A stretch of DNA of 40,123 nt from Actinomycetota bacterium. Lineage in GTDB: Bacteria; Actinomycetota; Actinomycetes; Nanopelagicales; Nanopelagicaceae. Positions 36,738 to 40,123 of this stretch are shown piece after piece. The notes below the pieces were generated by a model that did not search any database, was not told where the DNA came from, and was given only the letters and a program-made list of their open reading frames with translations. The translations under genes and the position numbers were made by a program. Location of the stretch: positions 1 through 40,123 of the forward strand of contig WLOP01000011.1 in assembly GCA_009699205.1 (NCBI GenBank), in the 5' to 3' direction. Position 1 is the first letter of the stretch. The number at the start of each line of letters is the position of its first letter.

Positions 36738-37021
36738 TGAGTAATGGCATGGCGCTACTGGCCATCTTCACTCTTTCAGTATTTGTTGGCTTTGAAGTTG
36801 TTTCTAAAGTCAGCTCAACTCTGCATACGCCACTTATGAGTGGCGCGAACGCAATTCACGGCGTGATCTTGGTCGGTGCAATCGTTGTTGCCGACCATTC
36901 ATCAAATAACGTCGAACTTTGGTTAGCCCTTACCGCAATCGTTCTGGCCACCATCAACATGGTCGGTGGATTTGTTGTTACAGATCGAATGCTCGAGATG
37001 TTTAAGGCGAAGAAGAAATGA
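36734..37021 (+). CDS. pntAB: NAD(P) transhydrogenase subunit alpha 2 (membrane)
   Basis: Small membrane subunit of the transhydrogenase. The protein has 95 residues with three hydrophobic helices (about 6-22, 40-55, 62-82). The conserved HTPLMSGANAIHG at 31-43 lines the proton path in helix/loop 2. Both ends overlap neighbours by 4 nt (ATGA type), giving a tightly coupled three-gene operon. With pntB it forms the proton channel. Confidence 0.93.
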   Translation: MMSNGMALLAIFTLSVFVGFEVVSKVSSTLHTPLMSGANAIHGVILVGAIVVADHSSNNVELWLALTAIVLATINMVGGFVVTDRMLEMFKAKKK

Positions 37022-38424
37022 ACCGTAACCTGTATGACCTCATCGGCCTCGCCGCATCAGTCTGCTTCATCCTTGCCCTCAAGGGTTTATCGCATCCAAA
37101 GACAGCTCGCCGAGGTAACCTCATCGGTGCCTTCGGTGCAACCGTCGCAACTCTTTTAGTCTTCTTCTTCACTGGTAATAAAGAGGATAAGAACTATCAC
37201 GCATTGCCTCTACACCACCTTCCGCTAATCCTTGGCGCAGTGGCAATTGGTTTGCTCGTTGGAGTTCCTGCTGCACGTAAAGTGCAGATGACCGCGATGC
37301 CTCAATTGGTAGCGCTCTTCAACGGTGTTGGTGGCGGAGCTGCTGCACTCGTTGCCATCGTCGAATATTTGAAGCTAGGAACCGAAGCAACTTCTGCTGA
37401 AGTTATCGCAACGGTATTCACCGTTATCGTCGGTAGCGTTTCCTTCTCTGGCTCATGCATCACCTTCGCCAAACTCCAAGAGTTAATGACAACACGTCCC
37501 GTCGTATTTCCTGGCGGACGCTTTGTTATCGCGCTCAACGTGGGTGGCGTATTTGCTGCAGCAGGATGGGTTATTAACTCCGGCGGAAATACATCTCTAG
37601 CAGTCCTTGGTGGACTTTCACTTCTCTTTGGTGTTCTCTTCGTACTTCCAGTGGGTGGAGCTGACGTTCCTATCGTTATCTCGCTCCTGAATGCATTTAC
37701 TGGTTTGACAGTGGCTGCAAGCGGATATGTACTGCAAGCAACTCTCCTTATTGTTGCTGGAACACTCGTCGGAGCATCTGGAACGATCTTGACTCGCTTG
37801 ATGGCAGATGCCATGGGTCGCTCGCTCTTTAAGACTCTCTTTGGCGCGTTCACCGCTAAGCCACAAGCTGCAACTGATGCAGCAGAAGCTCGTCCTGTGA
37901 AATCTGGTTCACCTGAAGATGTTGCGATCTTGCTTAACTATGCTCGCCGCGTCGTGATCGTTCCTGGTTTCGGACTCGCAGTTGCACAAGCACAGCACAC
38001 AGTTCGCGAAATGGCAGATGTACTTGCAGCTAAGGGAATTGAAGTCGCTTACGGAATTCACCCTGTTGCGGGCCGTATGCCTGGTCACATGAACGTGCTA
38101 CTTGCTGAAGCAAATGTTCCTTACGAACAATTAGCTGAAATGGAAGAAGTGAACCCAACGTTTTCACAGACCGATGTTGCGCTAGTTATCGGTGCAAACG
38201 ACGTCGTCAACCCTGCCGCAAAGAACACGCCTGGCTGCCCAATCTATGGAATGCCAATTCTTGAAGTTGCTGACGCTGCAAACGTCATCTTCTTGAAGCG
38301 TTCGATGCGCCCAGGATTTGCCGGAATCGAGAATGAACTTCTCTATGATCCTAAAACAACGCTCCTCTTTGGCGATGCCAAGGAGACGCTGACCAAGGTA
38401 GTGAGCGCGCTTAAGAGTTTGTAG
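37018..38424 (+). CDS. pntB: NAD(P) transhydrogenase subunit beta
   Basis: Membrane and NADP(H)-binding subunit. The protein has 468 residues: about eight to nine membrane helices in 1-270, then the soluble domain III from about 300, with VVIVPGFGLAVAQAQ (the NADP loop) and HPVAGRMPGHMNVLLAEA. The complex uses the proton gradient to reduce NADP+ with NADH, supplying NADPH. The window also contains the ATP synthase that shares the same gradient. The gene ends 73 nt before pirin with no clear terminator. Confidence 0.96.
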   Translation: MNRNLYDLIGLAASVCFILALKGLSHPKTARRGNLIGAFGATVATLLVFFFTGNKEDKNYHALPLHHLPLILGAVAIGLLVGVPAARKVQMTAMPQLVALFNGVGGGAAALVAIVEYLKLGTEATSAEVIATVFTVIVGSVSFSGSCITFAKLQELMTTRPVVFPGGRFVIALNVGGVFAAAGWVINSGGNTSLAVLGGLSLLFGVLFVLPVGGADVPIVISLLNAFTGLTVAASGYVLQATLLIVAGTLVGASGTILTRLMADAMGRSLFKTLFGAFTAKPQAATDAAEARPVKSGSPEDVAILLNYARRVVIVPGFGLAVAQAQHTVREMADVLAAKGIEVAYGIHPVAGRMPGHMNVLLAEANVPYEQLAEMEEVNPTFSQTDVALVIGANDVVNPAAKNTPGCPIYGMPILEVADAANVIFLKRSMRPGFAGIENELLYDPKTTLLFGDAKETLTKVVSALKSL

Positions 38425-38465: not shown

Positions 38466-38496
38466 CCCTTGGATATCTAGACCCAAGGAGCACGTG

Positions 38497-39474
38497 ATGC
38501 CAGCTGTAACCGTTAAGGATATTTCAGTACTTCCCCGCGTGAGCGCTGCGCACAATCTGCGCGCGCGAGGAGTCCTGTCTGTGACTACTGCTCCCCAAGG
38601 TTTCGAAGGTGAAGGCTTCCCCGTTCGTCGTGCATTTGCCGGCGTCGATATCGCAGCGCTCGATCCATTTATTCACTTAGATCAAATGGGTGAAGTGGAG
38701 TACGCACCGGGTGAGCCAAAAGGAACTCCGTGGCATCCGCACCGTGGATTCGAAACTGTTACTTACATTATCGATGGGATTTTCGATCATCGCGATAACA
38801 ATGGCGGCGGCGGAACAATTACCAATGGTGATACGCAATGGATGACAGCGGGCGCTGGAATTTTGCATATAGAAACTCCCCCGGAACATTTGGTGATGAG
38901 TGGCGGGCTATTCCATGGTTTTCAGCTCTGGGTTAATCTTCCGGCTGCAAAGAAATGGTCACCACCTGCATATCAAGATGTCCGTGCAGCTGATGTCGCG
39001 CTCCTGTCTTCATCCGATGGTGGCGCACTGATTCGAGTTATCGCAGGAGAAATTGATGGATATAAAGGCCCGGGCACCACACAAACCCCAATTACTTTAA
39101 TTCATGCCACTGTTGCAGCAGGTGCTGAGCTACGTCTTCCTTGGCGCAAGGATTACAACGCTCTGGTTTACACCTTGGCTGGTCGCGGTTTGGTTGGCGA
39201 GGAACGTCGCCCTGTTGAAATGGGAGAGTTAACTGTTTTTGGTGAAGGCGATCTCATTGTTGTACGCGCATCTGATAACCAAGAGAGTCGCTCTCCCGAA
39301 ATGGAGCTCTTTATTCTTGGCGGCCAGCCAATTAAGGAACCTGTTGCGTGGATGGGGCCATTTGTTATGAATACTAAGCGTGAGGTTTTACAAGCTTTCG
39401 AAGATTTTCAGAACGGAGTTCTCGGAAGTATTCCCGCAGTGCACAATGCCCCGACGACATTGATTGAGGGTTAG
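38497..39474 (+). CDS. Pirin-family protein (cupin)
   Basis: Bicupin metal protein, 325 residues. The N-terminal cupin has the pirin metal motif HPHRGFETVTY (about residues 78-88) and the second ligand pair in GAGILHIETPP. The C-terminal pirin_C domain begins around 195. Bacterial pirins include quercetin 2,3-dioxygenases and redox or stress regulators; the substrate cannot be assigned here. ATG 38497 is chosen over the adjacent GTG 38494 because AAGGAG (38485-38490) stands 6 nt before it. An operator-like palindrome upstream suggests inducible expression. Confidence 0.92.
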   Translation: MPAVTVKDISVLPRVSAAHNLRARGVLSVTTAPQGFEGEGFPVRRAFAGVDIAALDPFIHLDQMGEVEYAPGEPKGTPWHPHRGFETVTYIIDGIFDHRDNNGGGGTITNGDTQWMTAGAGILHIETPPEHLVMSGGLFHGFQLWVNLPAAKKWSPPAYQDVRAADVALLSSSDGGALIRVIAGEIDGYKGPGTTQTPITLIHATVAAGAELRLPWRKDYNALVYTLAGRGLVGEERRPVEMGELTVFGEGDLIVVRASDNQESRSPEMELFILGGQPIKEPVAWMGPFVMNTKREVLQAFEDFQNGVLGSIPAVHNAPTTLIEG

Positions 39475-39574: not shown

Positions 39575-39994
39575 ATGTTCAAGAATGCAAGCAAAAGAGA
39601 GGGTTCACCTCTTACTATCTCGCGGGTGGGTCAGCTCCTGGGCGAGAGCGCGGGCATAGCGATTCTGAGCGAGCTGCTCGAGATCGATCCATTCACTCTC
39701 AGTCGCGTTGATCGCGTTGATTATTTATCGGCGCTCGAAAAACAGAGCGGTTGGTTGCAAGCTGCGCTGCAGAGAGCGATTGTTGCTGTTGCTGGGGATC
39801 AACCAAGTCAGAGTGAAGGCATATGGACAGGGGTAGATGATTGCGAACGCGAAGAAATCGCATCGGCTCTTCGTCTCTCTGGCTCCACGGCGCAGCATCG
39901 CATCGATGTAGCTCGCACCCTCGTTAACCACTTACCCGAAGTCTGCTCTGCGCTCTCTACCGGCGAGATTTCTCCGGCACATGCGGATGCTTGA
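39575..39994 (+). pseudogene. DUF222 (13E12-type) N-terminal fragment, interrupted
   Basis: The reading frame has 139 codons. Residues 42-139 match the N-terminal domain of the DUF222/13E12-repeat family of Actinobacteria, which usually continue to an HNH endonuclease domain and total 350-500 residues; EREEIASALRLSGSTAQHRIDVARTL and ALSTGEISPAHADA are the recognisable segments. The frame stops right after AHADA, where the family normally continues, and no other frame restores it. The break coincides with the start of a recombinase gene, so the gene is probably split by an integrated element. A free-standing short protein is possible but less likely. Confidence 0.7.
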
Positions 39995-40002
39995 TTTGTG
40001 TC
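39975..40002 (+). other. Predicted element boundary (attL/attR-type junction) in DUF222 gene
   Basis: DUF222 homology ends at the codons for AHADA (to 39991), a TGA follows at once, and the recombinase coding region opens at 40003. Serine recombinases usually lie next to their attachment site and recombine at a 2-bp core, so the crossover should fall in this stretch. The exact core cannot be placed without the other junction. Confidence 0.5.
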
Positions 40003-40123
40003 ATGAGGCTGGATTACTCTTTAGAGGTGGCGAACCCAAAAGCAAGTCAAGTGTCTCGCAAGGTCGGGGTATATCTTCGCATTTCCGATGACCGCGAAGG
40101 TAAGGGTTTAGGTGTTGCTCGCC
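40003..40123 (+). CDS. Serine site-specific recombinase/integrase, N-terminus (runs off window)
   Basis: About 40 codons are visible. KVGVYLRISDDREGKGLGVAR carries the resolvase-family nucleophile serine in YLRIS and the DDREGKG-type segment typical of large serine integrases of actinobacterial phages and integrative elements. The rest is beyond the right window edge. ATG 40003 gives a 20-residue lead; GTG 40027, with TACTCT 6 nt upstream, is an alternative and fits the leaderless pattern seen elsewhere. Its place beside a broken DUF222 gene indicates that it is the integrase of an element inserted there. Confidence 0.85.
   Translation, partial: MRLDYSLEVANPKASQVSRKVGVYLRISDDREGKGLGVAR

Follow-up and report, generated by a model that had tools for sequence, protein, structure and literature searches.

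A mobile element has almost certainly entered the single DUF222-HNH gene of this actinobacterium through attP x attB recombination driven by its own large serine recombinase of the R4 type, as far as can be read from the DNA at the two ends of the element. We favour insertion because both halves of the disrupted gene were recovered, a 5-bp core is common to the two junctions, joining the halves at this core restores the reading frame, the reconstructed attP forms a dyad, and an independent copy of the element lies at the same base in another genus. These gene halves, core, attP dyad and second copy bear out the original prediction that a large serine integrase had inserted its element into a protein-coding gene.

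The split DUF222-HNH gene and its neighborhood

The window, by which we mean the whole stretch of DNA that was analysed (40123 bp), constitutes contig C3 of a 1.42-Mb, 17-contig assembly, and its end is the contig end. The features at this end, and the one at the end of contig C16 that is discussed with them, are as follows.

37018 to 38424, + strand: pntB (transhydrogenase beta subunit), an ORF named by homology; host flank and synteny anchor, as its orthologue adjoins the intact DUF222 gene in relatives
38494 to 39474, + strand: pirin-family gene (Pfam Pirin, 1.6e-30), host flank directly 5' of DUF222; adjoins DUF222 in most relatives
39575 to 39994, + strand: truncated N-terminal DUF222-HNH piece, 139 aa (Pfam DUF222 positions 17-85/306), of host origin as far as the core at 39980-39984
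39955 to 40006, + strand: predicted attL, with host B half-site 39955-39979, crossover CA 39980-39981 and element P half-site 39982-40006, from dyad analysis and the boundary of identity with genome G229
39980 to 39984, + strand: common core CATGC, 5 bp, shared by attL and attR; the contig with the C half in G229 starts at CATGC
39996 to 40006, + strand: outer arm of the P half-site, TTGTGTCATGA, equal to the C16 arm at 11/11 positions; the int start codon lies inside it
40003 to 40123, + strand: 5' end of int, large serine recombinase gene, running off the contig; identical to the start of a longer copy with Resolvase and Recombinase domains
C16 end, L005:9883-10683: DNA methyltransferase, type II-like (Pfam N6_N4_Mtase, 3e-42; PADLOC type II MTase, 3e-116)

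The truncated DUF222 ORF (39575-39994, +) scored 28.9 bits against Pfam DUF222, its match covering profile positions 17-85 of 306, and 8 nt separate its stop codon (39992-39994) from the int ATG at 40003, so that the predicted broken DUF222 frame with a recombinase gene opening close by is real. This frame had been described as ending after AHADA; host sequence does continue through ..SPAHA, but the final codons and stop ('DA-stop') are supplied by the element. As had also been claimed, no other reading frame continuing DUF222 was found within the window. The continuation, expected as a missing C-terminal DUF222/HNH half at the far end of the element, was found beside the other element end on C16 (59067-59711, - strand), where it covers profile positions 112-306, lies about 1 kb from the contig end, and is followed by an HNH domain whose score fell just under the Pfam cut-off. 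When C3 and C16 were joined at CATGC, they encoded an unbroken, in-frame DUF222-HNH protein of 460 aa, which gave one match to DUF222 positions 36-306 at 103 bits, as against 29 and 66 bits for the separate halves.

Apart from the C3 piece, the genome had only one other DUF222 match, the C half on C16, so that the gene is single-copy and therefore offers one natural landing site. The suggestion of several landing sites through multi-copy DUF222 genes consequently did not hold for this genome. The DUF222-HNH orthologue is intact in relatives, with 61-77% identity over its length in the best cases, and the norm for the family is a full-length DUF222-HNH protein of about 450-500 aa rather than one of 139 residues, a length whose being the norm would have counted against insertion. 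In relatives within the genus, the intact gene is flanked by pntB-pirin on one side and by GNAT/hypothetical/smpB on the other, and the same neighbor genes occur at the C3 and C16 ends. Because the intact orthologue sits in this matching neighborhood, the empty site is known from relatives, and comparison with these uninterrupted alleles, which had been proposed as a check, allowed the attB core to be read as CATGC. DUF222-HNH is a gene family of unknown role, and its protein is presumably lost while the element occupies the gene.

The int gene encodes a large serine recombinase

The int ORF visible in the window, MRLDYSLEVANPKASQVSRKVGVYLRISDDREGKGLGVAR, comprises 40 aa cut by the contig end, and by itself this start was too short to give a Pfam match. 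A longer copy in G229 (L040, 296 aa read) opens with the same 40 residues (100% identity) and is likewise cut by the end of its contig. The 296-aa copy (P0003) matched Resolvase (PF00239, 2.4e-24) and then Recombinase (PF07508, 6.5e-11), as well as phrog_95 'integrase' (1.3e-56); the Recombinase domain is known from this copy and lies outside the int portion in the window. We take the catalytic Ser to be encoded at 40084-40086, in the YLRIS motif within the window, an assignment made by motif from knowledge of the family. The closest named relatives in the phage collection were the integrase of Streptomyces phage R4 and those of the M. abscessus prophages prophiT49-2 and prophi86-1, which have the same domain order as int, although they are only 30-33% identical to it. 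Judged by its sequence, int is an R4-type large serine recombinase (serine integrase).

The rest of int, sought in its own genome with PF00239, PF07508 and P0003, was not found in the assembly, and a search of IMG/VR for int and both attP arms returned no copy. Recognisable large serine recombinases are rare in the family (6/296 genomes).

The junctions reconstitute an attP with dyad symmetry

We reconstructed attP by swapping the outer halves of the two junctions, the core on C16 running from 59798 downwards. The product is a 25+25 bp dyad centred on the CA within CATGC, and its half-sites, read outward from CA, matched at 17/25 positions, including 11/11 at positions 15-25, where the outer arms are identical (TTGTGTCATGA both in the window and on C16). 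Other centres tested within a few bp gave at most 9 matches, and the 17/25 symmetry was reached by 0.15% of shuffles. Because the matching arms come from different contigs, they provide independent evidence that the ends of C3 and C16 are parts of a single element. A serine integrase is expected to use an attP some 50 bp long, in which dyad arms surround a short core that also occurs in a different attB, and this is the arrangement seen here. In the structural work on LI integrase and its attP (PMC3783163), a whole half-site spans 25 bp, and the zinc-ribbon domain was placed with the help of base pairs 16-24, a region in the same place as the matching arm at positions 15-25 here. The attB and attP of R4, as given in the portion of the source that was covered (PMC4015280), differ from the sites described here.

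Bases 2, 3 and 8 (G, C, G) are identical in all four half-sites. The attB covers the conserved codons S-P-A-H-A-T-V, and the CATGC core was kept in 20/30 aligned orthologue sites (L014 and L044 being one gene, counted twice), with the G-C-G positions kept in most. By itself, attB shows weak symmetry (10/25 at CA; 14/25 at a centre that is not shared), which was not used as evidence.

Separately, the genus of the window holds another, unrelated serine recombinase (L041, G018:C31). Its 3' end continues through ..GFEPLTPCMPCRCATSCATAP.., a sequence with the look of a tRNA gene taken from the wrong strand, which would be an attachment site of a different kind.

The same element occupies the same base in another genus

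In G229, which belongs to another genus, the same element was found at the same base of the DUF222 gene. To the left of the core, the DNA of G229 and the window is about 77% identical (67% in protein for the DUF222 N half), whereas from the core rightwards 144/144 bases are identical up to the end of the window's contig. The DUF222 C half of G229 opens a contig exactly at CATGC (L188, G229:C80:1), which could represent a fork in the assembly graph due to a mixture of occupied and empty sites. A short DUF222 gene followed by the recombinase elsewhere, with no distal half, had been named as a finding that would argue against insertion; G229 has the distal half. The simplest reading of these sequences would be transfer between the genera, or acquisition by both from a common source, at one base of one gene.

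This second copy bears directly on whether the junction could be an assembly or binning chimera, in which the last ~140 bp of C3 came from a phage contig of another organism and were misjoined to DUF222. The assembly is a draft, the junction lies at most 144 bp from the contig end, and the interior of the element is missing, all of which would fit such an artefact. We nevertheless consider it very improbable, because the second assembly has this junction at the identical base next to a host flank that differs, and two unrelated misjoins would have had to fall on one base with only 5 bp in common, which is difficult to believe. Furthermore, a k-mer misjoin would need more than the 5 bp of the shared core, the attP arms at the ends of C3 and C16 complement each other, and the DUF222 C half was found where insertion needs it to be. 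It is still harder to believe that ordinary decay or an unrelated rearrangement truncated DUF222 and that the recombinase adjoins it by chance: although Actinobacteria often carry several DUF222 genes, which vary, and other genomes have degenerate copies, the break here is base-precise in two genera, falls at the centre of the attP dyad, and leaves halves that rejoin in frame. We give just as little credence to splitting of the gene by a transposon or IS of the small serine recombinase or IS607 kind, since the IS607 profile matched the integrase weakly (5.1e-07, 29 bits vs a cut-off of 110), whereas a Recombinase domain follows the Resolvase domain, the best matches are phage serine integrases, and the ends form one attP of the serine-integrase type.

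Contents of the element

We therefore retain insertion by a serine integrase as the preferred reading, and regard the element as a prophage or genomic island, known here from its two ends alone. Its interior, including most of int, is absent from the assembly, and since no single contig spans it, here or in G229, we infer the linkage between C3 and C16; the right-hand end was seen in one genome only. If only part of the population harboured the element, contigs would be expected to break near the att sites.

On the C16 side, the element starts about 80-130 bp before the DNA methyltransferase gene, which is transcribed into the element and is its visible cargo. Among 296 genomes of the family, this methyltransferase was unique to the present one, the others yielding nothing close to it, and relatives with 50-73% identity occurred in many viral contigs, none tied to the window's integrase. 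The start of a short frame after the methyltransferase gave no reliable match, and a restriction-enzyme partner beside it is only a guess.

DUF222-HNH genes as a probable recurrent landing pad

REP13E12 genes encode DUF222 proteins. The closest precedent for the insertion described here is phiRv1 of M. tuberculosis (serine recombinase Rv1586c), a prophage-like element integrated in REP13E12 (PMC9317374). It is likewise a serine-recombinase element in a 13E12-family gene, the counterpart here being the split DUF222 gene, but its target is a repeat with several sites whereas ours is single-copy. The phiRv1 crossover is reportedly in the C-terminal HNH part, not at AHATVI. In the parts of their paper that were covered, Durrant et al. 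described different large serine recombinases converging on one conserved coding-gene site, for example in a prolyl isomerase or Mg chelatase-like gene (PMC10083194). Those elements disrupt a conserved gene, as here, where the target is DUF222-HNH, which was not seen named as a target in the main text of that paper as searched; no papers treating DUF222 together with attB or a serine integrase were found in the literature searched.

We examined a wider sample of 30 class-level integrase homologues with about 30-39% identity to int. A broken DUF222-HNH gene lay 5' of int in 4/30 (G526, G373, G482 and G370), in what is a small sample without a formal background rate and with break points read by eye; on the 3' side of int, there was no DUF222 match among the 30 homologues. 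In G526, a 37%-identical integrase in the opposite orientation adjoins a DUF222 C half that starts RHAVVI, at the homologous HA-VVI codons (L131, G526:C665); the candidate N half, which ends EHATVA within the same segment, lies on a separate contig (L179, G526:C275:5044-5424). These halves fuse in frame via a shared GTCG some 9 bp away from the crossover in the window. The element is in reversed orientation there, and the pairing of the halves is likely. In G370, both DUF222-HNH halves lie on one contig about 4.9 kb apart (L181, G370:C269:59023-65271). The core there, GAACCTCG, is 8 bp long and falls within the HNH motif ELANL|VLLCHRHH; the ~4.9 kb element carries a 469-codon serine recombinase frame and an ORF that resembled, by eye, a plasmid replication protein. 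The DUF222-HNH gene of G373, a complete genome with 29 DUF222 matches, is cut at NLKCLCRK directly before the int start (L143, G373:C1:2474807-2478586), and in G482 a C-terminal DUF222 piece starts at NIAPLCRRHH. We did not accept the two DUF222 pieces of G482 as one split gene, as no convincing joining core was seen and the distal piece may represent a further paralogue. G531 (L125), with a nearly whole DUF222 before int, was left out of the count.

Together with phiRv1 in REP13E12 (PMC9317374), these cases suggest a reused landing pad. We think it somewhat probable that R4/phiRv1-like serine-integrase elements in general have landed time and again in DUF222-HNH genes throughout Actinobacteria, and that they have done so at no fewer than two hot spots of conserved codons, one being AHATVI and another the HNH motif NLxxLCRRHH. 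Gene-splitting insertion is a known kind of event, and the element in the window confirms it as a further case at an apparently reused target gene.

Proposed mechanism and implications

The pairing of dimers, cutting, rotation and religation are established steps of serine-integrase biology. Applied to this locus, integrase dimers would bind the ~50-bp attP and the attB over codons S-P-A-H-A-T-V, both sites would be cut at CA, and the strands would be exchanged by subunit rotation and then religated. The products would be attL beside int in the window and attR beside the DNA methyltransferase on C16. Integration would disrupt DUF222-HNH and set int 8 bp behind the truncated host frame, and excision with a directionality factor (none was seen) would restore the gene. 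With the int start codon inside the attP arm, binding by the integrase could affect its own expression.

These results provide a predicted attP and attB, resolved to the base, for a new serine integrase, and with it a candidate tool for integration into small-genome actinobacteria of the freshwater type. They also place one element in two genera, within a family that has few recognisable large serine recombinases, and they extend the phiRv1/REP13E12 case, in that DUF222-HNH seems to be a recurring landing pad, an idea that is now open to testing.
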